This document shows positions 7,601-17,251 of a DNA stretch of 64,000 nucleotides, one piece after another (the stretch's first letter is position 1; the number at the start of each line of letters is the position of its first letter). This stretch comes from Morchella semilibera (Eukaryota; Ascomycota; Pezizomycetes; Pezizales; Morchellaceae). The notes beneath the pieces are model-generated. The model did no database searches. It worked only from the letters and a program-made list of their open reading frames with translations, and was not told the DNA's origin. The DNA lies in NCBI GenBank assembly GCA_009192285.1, contig CM018603.1:1273304-1337303 (forward strand). Reading direction: 5' to 3'. A program made the translations under genes and the position numbers.

Positions 7601-8605
7601 CTTAGCTAGCACATGCAAGATTATATGTTTTTCCCCCACGGCCGCTGCATAGTCCTGGGTCTACACCAGGTTTTTCTCGCCGAGGTTAAAATATGCGTGA
7701 GACTTCTTCTTTTCAATAGATATAGGTGGTAACGAGCCGTCCTTGGTGAGTACATCCGAGTATTACAGCCAGCAGTCCTACCAATACCTGTCTTAGCTTC
7801 AGAGATCAAAAATTACGGACAGATAACATTTCTGGTAAGGACCTGCATAGATATTGGGAATGGCTAGCTACATAGCTATAGGGGGTATGGTATAATCATA
7901 TCTATATTTATAAGCCTCATTACAATAACGTAGGTCAGTTCATTTTTACATGCAAAGCAATTAACGAAAAACCGATAGTATAACGTGCAAGATGTATGAA
8001 CGATGATCTCTGTGCACCAATCTGGGCACACGTGCGTATGGTTCTATTTATCTGTTTGTGTATCGCTGCGCTGCAAAGAGCCCTCCTACGTACGTCAAAA
8101 ACATGCAATGTCAAGCCATCAACGTCATTAATGCGTCTTCTGGTACTATATCTACTATAACAGCCGCACAGATGTGTTTTATATCAAAACCTCTCAACAT
8201 CTTCCCTAATACCAATAGGTACTGGACGCTGCAGGTTAAACTACGTTGGTTTCTCTACACTTTCAGTTGTACTGTTTTATACAATTAAATTTCTAGTATA
8301 GTGAAATGAAGAAAGTCGAGAGAGAGATAGTCAACCGGTCTTTCCAAAACGGAGAAGACATGCAGACCCTTAAAACAGAGTTGTATCCATATCCTGACTC
8401 CACCCCTCTTCGTAATCTCGATCTCAAATTCTCACTCGGTCATATTGCCAAGATTTCCACAACCCTAACCCAACCTATCCTCGCCAGCTGTTTATCACAA
8501 AAAAAAAAAAAAAAAAAAAGGCTCAACACCCACAAAGCTAAACACAAAACATCTCAACCTTTTCACCCACGACGACCTCACACGCTCGCACATAGTTTTC
8601 AGAAC
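4686..8605. other. Intergenic region of 3.9 kb without a recognisable gene
   Basis: A T22 run lies near 4863-4884 just after the RGS gene, followed by TCATCATT-type simple sequence around 4950-5000. An (AGC) trinucleotide repeat lies at 6468-6493 and an A-rich run near 6815. Short open frames at 7331-7639 and 7621-7809 on the minus strand have no family I recognise and no supporting splice structure. An A20 run at about 8500-8519 lies roughly 90 bp before the ORC4 start and is probably in its promoter or leader. Confidence 0.5.
6468..6493. repeat. (AGC)n trinucleotide microsatellite
   Basis: About eight AGC units in a row, read directly from the sequence, in an intergenic region. Confidence 0.9.
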
Positions 8606-11133
8606 ATGCCACAGAAACGTAAAGTTACCAGCACAGGAGAGAAAACACCCTCGTCGAAACGTGTTAGAATCGCTTCTGGGACACCCCCATTAACGCGTAC
8701 GCGATCCCCCGAGGCGGAGGAGGACAGGCCAGACGAGAGTGAGAATGCGCGAACCACACCACGGGTGCCGAGCGTAGGGGCTGGGGCGGGGGATGTTGGG
8801 GTAATCAAGAGGGGTCCGGGAAGACCAAGGAGGAATACATTAGAGACGTCGAACCAGAACCAGAACCAGACACCATCTACGCCCAAGGCCGGGGGAGCAG
8901 GGGGACGGCTGCGGAAGACATCCTCCACCGTGAGGAAAGGGAGATCAACTGTGGAGACAGAGGCGGAAGCCGATAAAGAAGTACCTCACGACGAGGTAGA
9001 AGTGGAAGGGGAAGGGGAGGATGCAGAGCTACCGCCTCCCGTCCCAATTGAAGACACGGACGACGTATTTGACCCCCCCTCCTCCGGAGATGAGCTCTCC
9101 CAGTCCCAACGCGTTAACCCGACCCCAAAGCGCCGGCCAAAGCCTAAAATCACCTACAAATCGCGACGGACCTCCCTCGGCGAAGCCGACAACGAAGAAG
9201 AAGAGGGAGAGGGAGACCCACTTACACGAACACCCCACATTACACGTTCCTCACCTATCAAAGTCGCCGCCAAGACTGTGGAGATCCCCACAACACCAGC
9301 GACAACAATAAAGCCGAGATCGAAGCCGCCGCGCGCACGGAAGAAGGATGCGCCTCGAGCTGATGCACCTCCAAGTTCCGTGGCGGAGGAGGTGACGCCG
9401 AGCGCTACTGTACGTGGGAACAGAATGAGCTACGGTAGTTTACATGAGACGGATGCGGAGGGAGAGGACGAAGATATAGAGGTTGATCTTAGAGCGGAAG
9501 AGGTAGATCCGGATGAGGATGTTGTGGGCGTCGATGGTAGGATTTCGGCGGCGCCGGCAACGGCGAAGAAGGACAAGGAGCGGGAGAAGACAAATAGAAG
9601 ACGGTCTATGCCGACACCTGCAAAGAAAACAGTAGTACTGGACGGTATGGAAGATCCCTTTGCGATCCCGGAGGAGCCAAGCCGGTCTCCTGAAAAGACT
9701 CAGAAACAAAAGAACGGCCCCCCGCAAAAGAAATTCGACCGGACCGCCATGAAAGCGCTTAAGAAAAACATCCTACCTAAATTGATGGGGAGAGAACGCG
9801 CAAAGCTTGTTGGTGTCGATGTGGAGGAATCACATGTCCGGAAACTTCTTGAGCAGACTGTTGTAGCTGGCGAGGGAAATTCTATGCTGATCATTGGCGC
9901 TCGTGGCAGTGGTAAAACAACTGTAAGAGAGCCCGTAATATGATCATTTCCGTACAAATTATGATATCAGGCCAATACATGAAGCTAACTAACACCGAAC
10001 AGCTCGTCGAAAGTGCAATCTCGGACCTGAAAGAACAGCATCCAAAAGACTTCCTCGTCGTACGTCTCAACGGCTTCCACCAGACCGACGACCGCATAGC
10101 TCTCCGTGAAATTTGGCGCCAACTTGGTGTTGAAATGGACCTTGATGCTGCCGATACCGGCAAAACCTCATTTGCCGACACGCTCTCCTCGATCCTCGCG
10201 CTTCTCTCGCACCCAGACGAGCTACAGAACTCTGAAGATGAAGCGGAGGACGCACCAGAGCAGCCCAAAGCGTCACTTAGTGTTATCTTCCTTCTTGAAG
10301 AGTTTGACCTCTTCACAACACATCCACGTCAAACACTATTGTACAACCTTTTTGACATCGCCCAATCCCGCAAAGCGCCCATCGCAGTAATTGGCACAAC
10401 CACACGAATCGACGTCACCAACACCCTCGAAAAACGTGTCAAGTCCCGTTTTTCCCACCGCACAGTACACCTGACTCCACCGCGTACCCTTGCCGCCTTT
10501 TGGGACATTGTCTGTGCCTCCCTCGCTGTCGACGCCGAGGTAACACACCGGAATCCGGTATTTGAGGAATGGAATAGCCACTTGGACAGCCTGTACAACA
10601 CACCCCAGTTCCAGTCACACCTCCGCCGCGTCTTTGCTCGATCTGCAGACACAAGAGCTTTCCTGAACTCGTGTATTCTCCCCGTTGCTGCCTTGTCAGA
10701 TGCCTGTGTCTTCCCGCCTGCCAGCGCCTTTGCTCCAACCCTCAGCGAGCCCGACAGCATATTATCCATTCTAGATGGGTTAACGGATCTTGAGCTAACG
10801 CTGCTTATTGCCGCCGCCCGCCTCGACATAGTCAGCGACACCGACACATGCAACTTTGCCATGGCCTACGACGAGTATGCAACGCTCGTCGGTGGTGTTA
10901 AGATCGCTGCTGCCGCTGCAGGGGTGGTAGCAGGAAGAGTGTGGGGTCGGGAGGTTGCTAGAGGCGCGTGGGAGAGGCTAGCTGGGTATGGACTACTGGC
11001 GGCCGTGGGGAAGGGCGGTTTTGAGGGGATGTGGAGGGTTGAGGTAGGACTAGGAGAGATTGGGGCTGTGGTGGAGAAGGGAGGGGCCGGGGCTGGGAGG
11101 GGCGCGCTGGGTAAATGGTGTAAAGAGGTTTAG
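8606..11133 (+). CDS. ORC4: Origin recognition complex subunit 4 with long AT-hook-bearing N-terminus
   Basis: AAA+ subunit of the nuclear origin recognition complex, which marks replication origins and loads MCM helicase. Two exons (8606-9922 and 10003-11133; intron GTAAGA..CAG with a CTAAC branch) give 815 residues. The first ~400 residues are charged, disordered and low-complexity. They contain a classic AT-hook core near residues 70-77 (RGPGRPRR) and other Arg/Lys/Pro patches. The AAA+ core follows: Walker A GARGSGKTT at 431-439, Walker B-like VIFLLEEFDLF near 532, an IGTTTRID sensor-1-like segment, and LEKRVKSRFSHR, an Orc4-type signature. The C-terminal third is a winged-helix-like region with an Ala/Gly-rich tail. 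The ATG at 8606 is chosen because upstream in-frame sequence contains the A20 run. The known precedent for AT-hooks in this subunit is fission yeast Orc4. Confidence 0.93.
8810..8833 (+). other. AT-hook DNA-binding motif in the ORC4 N-terminus
   Basis: The codons read RGPGRPRR, matching the AT-hook core (GRP flanked by basic residues). AT-hooks bind the minor groove of A/T-rich DNA. In fission yeast Orc4 an array of such motifs tethers ORC to AT-rich origins. Here I see one clear copy plus weaker Arg/Pro patches further on (KPRSKPPRARKK), so affinity may be modest. Confidence 0.75.
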
Positions 11134-11444
11134 GCATTAGGGATTAATTGTACGAGTATTTAATTATATATCTTTTCGTTTTGCGGCTTTTAGTTGTAGT
11201 TTTATTAGGTCTTAAGAGTATAATGGTATAATGACGGTTGGATCACACGATGTGAATAAATTAGGGGACAGCGGAGTCCGTCTGTACCCGGAGTTTTTTC
11301 CCTTCTTTTTTTCATTTCTTAATTGCAATTGACTACATGCTGTGCGGTCACACCGTGTAGAGGTCGCGTTTATAAAACTGCGGACGTCGCGTCTAGCTCC
11401 CACCCCACCCCACCACACCGCACCTCCCCTATCACCACCACCCA

Positions 11445-12584
11445 ATGCCAAGAGTCACACGCCAAACTGCAGCCTCCGCCGCCAAAGCTGTTCCCAGCAC
11501 AGCGGCGGCCCCGTCCCCCAGGCCAGCCAGGCCTCCCCGCGCCAAACTCACGGCCAGGGCCAAAGCTGGGCCGCACATATATACAGTGAGGTGCACAGCC
11601 GAGAACTGCTGCGGGAAGGACTTCAGCCGCAACAAGATGAAAGATGCAAGGGTGGCCATGATGAAGCATCTTTACCGCTATGGCCTTCACTCAATCAAGA
11701 GGGCAGAGGAGGGCTACGAGGAGATTAAAGAGGAGGGGGAAGAGAAGGATGCAAGAGGCCCGGGGGATAAGCGTCGGCAGAAAATAAAATTTGATGATGA
11801 GCACTTGAAAGCTTACAAGAAGGAGCTGGAAAAAGGCGACTATGATCGTATGTTATGTTTATTTATCTTTATGCGTACCTCCCAATTTCCTGGCGCTATC
11901 TAATCCATGATAATATATACAGACGAGTCTGAGGAGAGGAAGAAGGCGGATAGAGACCGAAAAGCGGTTGAGAGGCGTCTCAATAATGCTGGAATGAGGG
12001 GAAGGACCATGCCTAGTAAGAGTGCACCAATGAGAGGAAGGGCTATGCCTACTAGCAAGAATGCACCAATGGAAAATATCAAAGAGGAAAATCCAACCCC
12101 CTTCGACCGTGTCGCTCTCTTCCTTAGTAGTTATCGCCATGAGAGCTCCTCCTACAAGGGTTTTGACGGGCGTCTCATACAAAAGAACCTTGAACTAGTT
12201 TCTGCCGAGCCAACAAAAACTACTTTTGAATTAACAGTGTCAGAAAGATTCACCGATATTGATGGAAGTCTGCACACAGGAGCGGCATCGTTAATTCTTA
12301 ACGTTTGCACTACAATCACGATGATTGCGGGCGCTAAATCACCGTAAGTACTTATGCTTTGGACCAGCGTAGTGTAGCTAATACCATAAAGAGGAGTTAC
12401 CAGAAGTCTAAATGTCACATACATTCGACCTATTCTAGTAATGGAGGGATCAAGACTGATTATTGAGTCTGAAGTCGTTGCGGCGGAGGAGAGGGAGACA
12501 GTTATTCTAAGAGGCATCATAAAAGATAAACAGAGTGGAGAAGTGATTTGTACAGCGGAACACTTGAAGTATTTTACTATGTAG
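11445..12584 (+). CDS. Hotdog-fold (PaaI/ACOT13-like) thioesterase with an uncharacterised N-terminal extension
   Basis: Three exons (11445-11847, 11923-12343, 12392-12584) give 338 residues; introns are 75 nt (GTATGT..CAG) and 48 nt (GTAAGT..AAG). Residues ~215-338 look like an acyl-CoA thioesterase hotdog domain: FLSSYRHESSSYKGFDGRLI, then DIDGSLHTGAASLILN (family HGG-like position), then GVTRSLNVTYIRP and a beta-strand-rich end. Residues 1-134 are basic and Ala/Pro-rich, with a Cys/His cluster (VRCTAENCCGKDF then MMKHLYRYGLH) that could be a degenerate zinc-binding unit. Residues 135-210 are charged. I do not recognise this extension. Either it is a fusion, or the thioesterase starts internally (for example MENIKEENPTPF at ~12069) and the upstream exon is a separate gene. 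The gene is tandem with ORC4 (311 bp apart) and convergent with the Argonaute. Confidence 0.7.
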
Positions 12585-12910: not shown

Positions 12911-15900
12911 TCACTGCCACCACTATATAAAGTAAATGTTAGTTAGGTAGAACTGGGTTCAAGTACGAGAAGATTACCATAGAAAATCGGATGTTCTGGT
13001 GGGCTTGAGCTAATTGGGGAATCCCCAATTGTTCGTCGGGCTCAGATGATCCACTTTTCAAATGTAGGCGGGCACGTTCACATGCAAGGCGGGCATAATA
13101 AACCGGCGGAACTAGAAATATCCCATTATCAGCCATGATCTCTAGAGAACATGAAGAGGAAATATAAATACCCATGCTTACTGCCGAGCTAGATCTACCA
13201 TATCCGTAGCATAGGTTGTTGCAGAGCTCTTGAAACGTACTAGCACTAAGATTGCTATCATCATGAACTGCCACATAATGGGTAGGGCGGGCGGTTCCTT
13301 GAAGTGCGATGTGAGCAACAAGGAAGATATCCTTTCCGTTGCCGTTTTCAACAACGGTTCCAGGAAGCACATTCCCTTTCTCGCCGAGGGATCCAGGACC
13401 CGGGAAAAAACGTGTATGATGCCGTTTAACGCAATTGATAACGGTGATGGGGGCGCTGGTAAGCTTCCTGAGCTCCTCCCACTCGGCTTTCAATTCAGAA
13501 CCATATCGTCCTTCAGAAAGCCCATCGCGAAAATAAATGATTCTTTCCGGAGTACGTACGGCCCGCGTGTAGCGATTAATGAGCTCCTTTACCATCCCAC
13601 TGAAGTTGTTTATCTTCTGGTCTAAAGGATCCTGTGAATCTGTCACCGCAGTGAACTGTGCACAATGTACATCATAGTTTGCCGCAAGGGCGACAAATGC
13701 CGGTGGCGGCGGAGTCAGTCGAAGCTGAGAAGCATTCGGGTATGATACATCGCATCCGATCACAAGAGTGGCCATACCCTTGAGAACTGGGTCATCAATA
13801 ATGGCATTTATTCCGCCTAGTTTGACGTTGATCTTCATTGCGATGTTCCCAAAGTATTGGGATTGCTTATTGGGTGCTATAGCTATAGCCTTATCGACAA
13901 GCATGCACTGTGAGGCAATACCCAACTTTGTGTCACAGATTTTTTTGATTTCGGCATATAGACCTGTCCCTCCTTTCTCAAACAGGAACAGTAGTAGATT
14001 TGGTCGAACCTTTTTCGTGACTAGAATCTTGTTGAGAAGCCCTAAAATAAGATCGAAATGGGTTCCCTGAGTGTTTCCAAAACTAATCAAAGGCACGCCC
14101 TCGGGAGTTAGGACCCCACATTTGGCAAATTCAAGGCTGCAGGTATTGATAAAATTTAAAAGCGTACTTTCATTCTGGCGGGTTCTTAGAGATCCGGGAT
14201 AATAGATCAGACCCCATTCAGTAACAGTTTGAGCCTAAAATTTTAGATCCTGAGCTTATGATTTTTGACTGGGATGGGCAAAGGATCTCCTTACCTTGAT
14301 GAATGTTTTACCAGTCAAATTCCAGCGTGCCTTAGCAACCCTTTCAGACCCCGTTTGGTATCGAGGAATCACAGGTTTCAGAACTGTAGCCGGGATCTGC
14401 ATAAATGTCGGATTTATCGACACTCCAAATTCCTTTAGTTCACGCTGCCTGTGCCAACTAAGTTTTTTCAAGCTCTCCTCGATCTGATCTTTGCGGATAT
14501 GCGGAGGTGCAGTCGCAAATTTGATAAAATCTGCAGTCTCTTTACCGTGTAGTGTCTCTTTCCAGCGCTCAAATTCGGCAACGAAACATAGCTCTAGCGG
14601 AAACATTTCCCCTTTTTTCGATTCGACCATAGGTAGGCTTGGGCATTGCAAAATGATATTATACTGTTGCCTGTAGTATTCTGCAACAGTTATTCTCTCC
14701 ATCACCATTGTTTCCTCGCCACTAACATGATCTTTGTAAAACCTTCTCACATTGAATGTTTCTGCAGAGGCGCCACGCCTAGTCAGTCTCATTACTCGTC
14801 TCACCATGTCCTTCTTTGGGCCTTCCTTTATGTGGTTGATCTTGAATCCAACGCCAAGAAATTTCCGTAGTGTGGTACCTAGACCTTGGTTTGTGCGATA
14901 TGTGTTTTCAACCTCATGTGAGTTTAACTTTGCCAAAGAGCAGACCGCCTCGAGAAAGTTGATACCAGGCTTGATGTATGCCGCGGTAGTGGTGTCAACA
15001 TTAACAGTAAGCTTTCCAAAGCGCACAGAAATGGTTTGGTAGAAACCACGCCAGGCTTCAAGTACATCGTTAGTGGAGGAGAGGGAAAGCTTTGTTGTCG
15101 ACACGTTTTCAAAATATGCCGTTGACTTATTACCATGACCAGTCTTAAATCTCTTCGATGGGTCAGAACGTAAAAGAGCATTCAGAAATTTCAAGCAGAG
15201 TTCAACTTGTTCTTCTCTGCTGAAATCAGCAACATCATGCAATGAGGTGGGGCGGCAGCTATCGTTTTGAAGCCACTTGATAAATGAGTCTGTACTGAGC
15301 TTTCCGGTGAAACCGATGTCAACGTTGCAGCCGAATGTTCTACCAGGGCGGGACCCCTGAAGTTCAAGGGGAAATCTATGAAGATCATTTCTGAATGGTA
15401 GTTTATGTGTTGACCAGCCAATAGAGACGCCATCGAAGATAAACCCATGTCCAAGTGTCTGTTTGATATCCGGATTCTCCATGACCTTTCTTACCATAGC
15501 TGGAGAACATTTTTTAGCCTCAGATTCGTCTAACGATCCGCCAGATCTCCTTAGATCGGCAGTAACTCGAATCTAATTGTGTACGTGAGTTTAAGGGCCG
15601 CACCCACTGAACGAAGGACAAGCATTAGAGGACTTACATCATATTGAAATATATCAATACACGGAAGAGATTGAACCTCAAAATGATTTGTGAACACTGT
15701 GGTTGCTGATCCACTTCGGGTGTTTTTATTCTGATAGGTTGGCTGATATTGTTTCAATTAGTCATTTAGGATGATATTAAGAGCACAGAAACCTACAAGC
15801 TCGAGGGGTTTCCCATTTTCTGGAATAGGAACTTTTTGCGGAAGCCTTTCTAACTTTTCTGCAATCCGTGGTGGAACATTGCCATTCCTGCTCCTCTCAA

Positions 15901-17251
15901 CAGGCCGGCCATCCCTGATACCATCTAGATAATTATTAATAAATTATTAAATCCAATGAATAAATCATTTAGGCTGTTTCGGTGCTTCACTTACTAAAGC
16001 CGTGTGGTTGACCTCCTTGCCAATCCTGGCCGCTTCTCTTATCATTAAAGTTAACCGCGGTGGTTCTTTCAAAAGAAGTTTTGCCAGGCCTTTGTCCTTG
16101 CTCTGGCCCTGGATTTTGCGCGCTGCGGGTAGCAGAGGTGCCGCCTACACCATTTGCCCCGTTTAGACTACTTGAGCTATATGCACCATGAGATGTGTGG
16201 GGGGCATGAGCAGCATATGCACCGTTTGTGTTACTTGTGCCGCTTACATTACTCGCACCATAAGAAGCATAAACACCGGGGGCAAAATTAGGGTGAGGGG
16301 AACCATAAGTAGTCTGGACACCATGTTGAGGACCATGAGTACCATTTGGACCATGTACATCCCTGGGATGGCCGTTCGGGGTCGGAGCAAACTTCCCATG
16401 GTCTTGCGACTGTCCTATATGCGGCCTATTTGCACCTGAAGTAGGTGAGTTATGGGTAGATTGATGTGGTAATCCTCGTGGGCCCGTTGGCGGCCCATTT
16501 ATACCTGACATTGGTGAACTATGGGCGGCTTGACGTGACAACAGCCCCCGCGGGCCCGCCGGCGGCCCACCTGCACCCGACATAGGTGAATTGTGGGCGG
16601 GTTGATGTGGTAATAGCCCCCGCTGGCCCGTTGGCGGCCCATTTGTACCTGAAATAGATGAATTGTGGGCGGGCTGGTGTTGCCCTCGCGGGCCCGTTGG
16701 TATTTTATTAGTACAGGGGAAAGAGGGGTTGGGGACACGTTGATGTGGTAGTAGCGTGTGCGGACCCTGTGAAAGCCCGTTGGCAGCCGCAATAGCGGAG
16801 TTGTGGACATGTTGGTGGGGCCGCCCCGCTGGCAGGCCAGTTGGTGGACTGGTGGACTGGTATGGTGTGATATTGGTTTTCACCATTCCACGTGGGCCGC
16901 TCGCTGCTACGGAGCTCCTTTCTGATACAGAGGTCTCATTGGATGACGACCGATGCCGAGAGGAGCTTTTTGGTGGTTAGTAAACTGAAGGAGAAAGGGA
17001 GGTGGAGAAAACGATAAAAAGAGCAGAGGGAGAGGCTTTGAGGTTGTAACCGCTCAAGAAGGGGGAATGGGAGTACGGAATACGTACTTGGAACTCTCAT
17101 CGGCATTATATGCACTATGCACAATTGAACAATCTTTTCGTTCTCTAACCTCAAGCTTTGGATGGCAAGCAGGCGAGCGTGAGCGGTCACGGGATCGGTG
17201 GTAGGAAGACCGCCCCGCATGGTCCCGATCACGGGATTCCCGAGAGGACAT
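12911..17251 (-). CDS. Argonaute (QDE-2/Ago1-like) with RS-rich, repeat-bearing N-terminus and altered slicer residues
   Basis: Small-RNA-guided silencing protein. I read eight exons (17251-17088, 16965-15995, 15924-15797, 15730-15638, 15572-14295, 14234-13172, 13111-12978, 12922-12911), all in phase, giving 1280 residues. Order: RS-rich start (SRDRDHAGRSSYHRSRDRSR), a Gly/Pro/His/Asn disordered region with ~24-residue tandem repeats (~113-230), N and linker domains, PAZ (~600-730), MID and PIWI. MID guide-anchoring residues are present (Y in LYAEIKK, Q in IASQC, K in MKINVKLGG). In PIWI the first and third Asp are present (IGCDVSYP ~1040; FRDGLSEG ~1115). By ungapped alignment to animal Ago2 the Glu-finger position is Gln (~1084) and the terminal His is Arg (VPPVYYARLAC, ~1240; codon CGC). 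Intron 6 (13112-13171, 60 nt) is stop-free and a multiple of three. The short last exon (WWQ) is the least certain. It could bind guides without slicing. Confidence 0.92.
16420..16790 (-). repeat. Coding minisatellite (~72-75 bp unit) in Argonaute exon 2
   Basis: About four to five diverged tandem copies encode a ~24-residue unit ending GPPTGPRG followed by HQPAHNSPMSG. Copies differ by substitutions but keep frame. The repeat lies entirely in the disordered N-terminal part, so copy-number change would alter linker length without touching the folded domains. Confidence 0.85.

Follow-up and report, generated by a model that had tools for sequence, protein, structure and literature searches.

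The question raised by the Argonaute gene of the window, the 64,000 nucleotide stretch of Morchella semilibera DNA that was analysed, is whether a protein in which two of the four slicer residues are replaced can still cut RNA. The gene (C1 Argonaute) lies on the minus strand at 17251-12911, has 8 exons and encodes 1284 amino acids. An earlier, sequence-only reading of this DNA had proposed a guide-binding, non-cleaving Argonaute; this stands as the best reading of the residues, from which the loss of slicing is predicted. The exon model is itself a prediction, built from the DNA letters by reading frame, splice sites and homology, and is composed as follows:

17088..17251, minus strand, exon 1: carries the start codon and encodes an RS-rich N terminus (MSSRESRDRDHAGRSSYHRSRDRSRSP)
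15995..16965, minus strand, exon 2: low-complexity extension of about 320 amino acids; P, G, H and N are abundant, and GPRG and PAHNSPMSG-like blocks recur
15797..15924, minus strand, exon 3 of the exon model
15638..15742, minus strand, exon 4: beginning of the N domain; the intron that follows (QYD^, phase 0) also occurs in the C12 paralogue
14295..15572, minus strand, exon 5: remainder of the N domain, linker 1, PAZ and linker 2 (Pfam)
13172..14234, minus strand, exon 6: a portion of MID and the bulk of PIWI (Pfam Piwi, alignment)
13112..13171, minus strand, intron of 60 nt: stop-free and a multiple of three; place and phase (1) match a C12 intron
12978..13111, minus strand, exon 7: end of PIWI including the fourth tetrad position R1244
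12923..12977, minus strand, last intron of the exon model, 55 nt
12911..12922, minus strand, exon 8: last three residues WWQ, then the stop; the C-terminal ...SMWWQ is similar to ...AMWFV of the C12 paralogue

The reading frame is unbroken, with no stop or frameshift across the 1284 codons, and all seven introns are GT-AG. Exon 1 is the least certain; it is without homology and was picked on fitting frame and splice sites (donor GTACGT, and TACTAAC ahead of the acceptor). The last intron was placed because it is required to reach the stop at 12911. The intron at 13112-13171 sits within a long ORF and its removal gives AVSMVPPVYYARLACERAR. The 20 amino acids ahead of VPPVYYAR were ruled out as normal protein, as they are the 60-nt intron common to C12. 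Retention of this stop-free, in-frame intron would yield an isoform with 20 additional residues near the active site. Ahead of the N domain there is an extension of about 425 residues, at first RS-rich and with many P, G, H and N residues thereafter. The Pfam models ArgoN, ArgoL1, PAZ and Piwi were found above cut-off, the last with 208.9 bits over residues 964-1254, and ArgoL2 stayed at 29.2 bits, short of the 33.3 that its cut-off demands. At E 0.001 Pfam matched no MID model; the MID stretch is alignable with human AGO1 (hAGO1) and Arabidopsis AGO10 (AtAGO10).

Where slicing Argonautes have D-E-D-H/D, the tetrad of the C1 Argonaute is D1044-Q1088-D1119-R1244. The codon positions were derived by hand from the exon table and checked against the DNA letters:

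13749..13751, minus strand, codon GAT: D1044, first catalytic Asp, kept
13617..13619, minus strand, codon CAG: Q1088, glutamate-finger position
13524..13526, minus strand, codon GAT: D1119, third tetrad residue, kept
13089..13091, minus strand, codon CGC: R1244, fourth tetrad position

The comparison set, aligned by MAFFT, is composed of the three paralogues of the same genome (C8, C12 and C19), QDE-2 of Neurospora, hAGO1, human AGO2 (hAGO2) and AtAGO10. The two catalytic Asp residues, which the earlier reading had listed as present, are verified in this alignment, and the third column carries Asp in six of the seven comparison proteins, the seventh being AtAGO10 with an engineered Ala (wild type D795; PMC10772731). 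The finger column has Glu in all seven, and the Gln that had been claimed for the C1 Argonaute is confirmed there; the suggested alignment to QDE-2 places the finger Glu of that protein opposite Q1088 with a length difference of one residue. From the finger to the next helix the spacing is gapless against C8, C19, hAGO1, hAGO2 and L030, a further Argonaute described below whose finger residue is Glu too, and the stretch is longer than in the C1 Argonaute by 1 residue in QDE-2, 2 in C12 and 13 in AtAGO10. On this gapless spacing to five proteins an alignment slip as the source of the Gln was rejected. By HMMER, the alignment with hAGO1 pairs Q1088 with the finger Glu and R1244 with the hAGO1 Arg; in the one with AtAGO10 the plant Glu falls in an insertion and not opposite the Gln, which for this one protein counts against the finger call. 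The HMMER alignment misses this pairing because AtAGO10 has 13 more residues there, and MAFFT does pair Q1088 with the AtAGO10 Glu. The finger call had been rated weaker than that at the fourth position and it does involve more alignment judgement, yet it is supported.

The fourth column has His in three proteins (C12, hAGO2, AtAGO10), Asp in three (C8, C19, QDE-2) and Arg in hAGO1, and the Arg reported for the C1 Argonaute is there, encoded by CGC. The single CAC-to-CGC change that had been put forward holds for its end point; CAC as the starting codon is conjecture, the His codon of C12 being CAT. That the assembly or the gene model is wrong and the true residues are Glu and His has very little to recommend it: GTATTT, at the start of the 13112-13171 intron, is no strong donor, but Q1088 is midway in an exon of 1063 nt, R1244 stands in the directly alignable context YYARLACERAR behind an intron that matches C12 in place and phase, and at least two separate codons would have to be hit.

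D-Q-D-R is neither the D-E-D-H/D of slicing Argonautes nor the DEDR of human AGO1, with which it has the Arg in common and from which it differs by Gln for Glu. Cutting by the C1 Argonaute appears very unlikely, because mutation of the finger E1013 abolished slicing in the Argonaute of Kluyveromyces polysporus (PMC10772731), human AGO1 (DEDR) is described as not slicing, R805H alone giving weak activity (PMC9262622), and both the finger and the fourth residue are changed here. It would still be conceivable, if improbable, that the C1 Argonaute is a weak or conditional slicer in which the two Asp together with the Gln, the Arg or a neighbouring residue suffice, for instance with short guides. 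Both Asp are kept, human AGO3, which slices weakly with full-length miRNAs, becomes active with certain guides of ~14 nt (PMC10772731), and Lys at the last motif position has been treated as functional in a survey (PMC4290597), so that Arg may harm less than assumed. However, the DEDH of AGO3 is intact, the K. polysporus protein could not slice without its finger Glu, and in the C1 Argonaute the two residues are changed together.

A third change lies close by. Tyr1047 corresponds to hAGO2 H600 and AtAGO10 H712, the His of DVTHP, which is His in all seven others, and the Thr of the same motif is Ser in the C1 Argonaute as well as in the tetrad-intact C12. According to a review, this Thr and His are conserved across eukaryotic Argonautes, and in AtAGO10 the His seems to restrict the access of the finger Glu up to the point at which target t10 is bound by the side chain of the Thr and the main chain of the His (PMC10772731). 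Because this bond is via the main chain, Tyr1047 may or may not disturb the t10 contact, and the change may be taken as supporting, not decisive, for the loss of slicing.

The guide-binding side of the protein has a different record. The 5'-phosphate pocket is intact, with the equivalents of hAGO2 Y529, K533, Q545 and K570 retained, which agrees with the MID residues noted before and gives the Y-K-Q-K of the eukaryotic AGO clade. The C1 Argonaute differs at 15 of the 61 PIWI-region columns that are identical in the seven others, and the same count for each other protein gives 0 to 4 changes among 46 to 50 columns, a somewhat unfair comparison in that unique changes are hardly possible in the close pair hAGO1/hAGO2 (88.4% identical); C12, QDE-2 and AtAGO10, with no close partner in the set, have 3 to 4. 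Thirteen of the invariant columns we take to be guide 5'-end and seed contacts; none of them is changed, against 15 of the other 48 (Fisher p = 0.015), a post hoc figure as the list was narrowed after the column table had been viewed. With a wider list that adds columns 600, 753 and 759 the counts become 1/16 versus 14/45 (p = 0.043). The sparing of the guide-contact columns is a real but modest trend.

The same 15 changed columns would fit relaxed constraint, as would the branch of the C1 Argonaute, which is the longest in both trees (FastTree and IQ-TREE), if the gene were becoming a pseudogene and slicing had been lost since the whole protein is weakly constrained. We consider this unlikely, given the uninterrupted frame and the seven GT-AG introns, the 13 of 13 guide columns kept (from the list made with hindsight), the recognisable PAZ and N domain and the absence of a RIP signature. 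RIP indices over 12911-17251 are 0.74 for TpA/ApT and 1.30 for (CpA+TpG)/(ApC+GpT), which by the usual thresholds give no such signature, and RIP damage was rejected as cause of the changes. The C1 Argonaute is probably an intact, fast-evolving eukaryotic Argonaute in which slicing has been lost and guide binding kept, and loading of a guide is likely.

In the genome, which comprises 56.8 Mb in 23 contigs, the Piwi domain is matched at five places, and as the C12 and C13 Argonaute loci are identical across the 9 kb compared, there are four distinct Argonautes and not five. The search for other Argonautes with an intact tetrad, which had been suggested as a check, yielded three, each read by its own splicing: C12 with DEDH, C8 with DEDD and C19 with DEDD. 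A DNA search of the genome with 4055 bases of the C1 gene returned only the gene itself. The contigs C12 (1,576,628 bases) and C13 (1,575,470 bases) are of nearly the same length and agree wherever they were sampled, at three places: 9 kb and 8 kb are identical, and another 8 kb is at 99.8%, the differences being gaps and not mismatches. Either the assembly contains this contig twice or the two are nuclear haplotypes. Matches to RdRP are present at three loci; the DxDGD motif is readable at those on C2 and C4, and on C19 GGDLDGG can be read immediately before the frame closes, at an apparent intron edge. RNase III matches, this domain being the part of Dicer that was searched for, are paired as in Dicers at C2, C6, C12/C13 and probably C20.

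The C1 and C12 genes share two intron positions, QYD^ in phase 0 and AVS-G^VP in phase 1. The intron positions of C8 and C19 differ from those of C1; C8 has neither intron at these two places, and C19 is without the second, which is the only one of the two places spliced in C19. In the IQ-TREE tree C1 and C12 are split from the rest with a support of only 68, and in the FastTree tree they are not grouped. As tree support is weak, the kinship is carried mainly by the two shared introns. QDE-2, C8 and C19 form a group in both trees (support 1.000 and 100), and the C1 Argonaute, with Arg at the fourth position, falls outside of it. The protein is not of the DEDD type seen in QDE-2: the shared introns and, weakly, one of the two trees put it with the DEDH paralogue C12. 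The likeliest history, judged from these sequences, would be that a gene of a His-type lineage was duplicated and that one of the copies then changed fast and lost catalysis. The C12/C13 paralogue is 38.1% identical to the C1 Argonaute over the PIWI region, and is unlike it in its intact tetrad and in a predicted start near the N domain, with no long extension.

Scans for relatives gave one (L030) among 18 pattern matches in GTDB and none among 29 in IMG/VR. L030 (NYXK01000109.1, 29225-34953) is an Argonaute resembling QDE-2, spread over two long ORFs, and its tetrad is DEDD; the contig on which it lies is filed under a deltaproteobacterial MAG and looks like fungal contamination of a bacterial bin.

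Among known Argonautes, human AGO1 (PDB 4kre and others) is like the C1 Argonaute in its fourth-position Arg, which likewise stands in YYARL, and in having both Asp and the guide pocket, and unlike it in retaining the finger Glu and the DVTHP His; with 36.2% identity in the PIWI region it is a distant protein. QDE-2, C8 and C19 share the Argonaute fold and guide pocket, where the Q545 equivalent is V, S or V, and differ by DEDD in a PPAYYADLVC context. The Caenorhabditis WAGO Argonautes, likened here by their description, lack the catalytic tetrad (PMC4245922). Ascaris WAGOs bind 5'-triphosphate RNAs (PMC8837657), and, unlike in these, the guides of the C1 Argonaute would be 5'-monophosphate RNAs, judging by its conserved Y-K-Q-K pocket. 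For fungi, DDD is reported for Mucor Argonautes (PMC3720535) and DEDD for VvAgo1 of Volvariella (PMC7522536), and in the survey of 34 species the fungal sites given are mostly DD[DEK], other variants being much commoner in animals (PMC4290597). An Argonaute without a working slicer site is a kind already known from animals; no report of a D-Q-D-R fungal Argonaute was found in the open-licence papers searched.

In the mechanism we propose, the C1 Argonaute would load Dicer-made small RNAs with a 5'-monophosphate, would be unable to cut either the passenger strand or a target, and would bind targets and bring in partners for transcriptional or translational silencing. The RS-rich and PGHN-rich N-terminal extension might, as a guess, be the partner-binding part. 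It counts against this mechanism that passenger-strand removal would need another nuclease. Alternatively, the protein could hold guides back from the slicing paralogues. The more complete proposal, that of a dedicated non-slicing Argonaute kept by selection, with Dicer-made guides, a long RS/PGHN arm recruiting partners and an origin separate from the animal ones, is put forward tentatively, and we give it somewhat less than an even chance. If it is true, the division into cutting and non-cutting Argonautes in this fungus would have evolved independently of that in animals. With three tetrad-intact Argonautes and one altered one in a single fungus, slicer-dependent and slicer-independent silencing would be separable by single gene removals.

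Two AlphaFold models of the C1 Argonaute, made without a deep alignment, have a mean pLDDT of 48.1 and 55.0, which is too low to place Q1088; the second model has its finger residue, number 206 of 353, in a stretch below 50. Foldseek with the second model returned Argonautes on top (best E 5.1e-21, TMq 0.50, rmsd 9.6), which makes the model Argonaute-like and nothing more; the claims on the protein are drawn from its sequence and none is borne by the models.

Two neighbouring genes lie on the plus strand of the window. The one at 11442-12584 has introns and is convergent with the Argonaute gene; its C-terminal part may encode a hotdog-fold thioesterase, as we read it, and the two ORFs scanned had no Pfam match at E 0.001. 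At 9916-11133 there is a match to ORC4_C, origin recognition complex subunit 4, in a gene that starts in the ORF 8297-9943.
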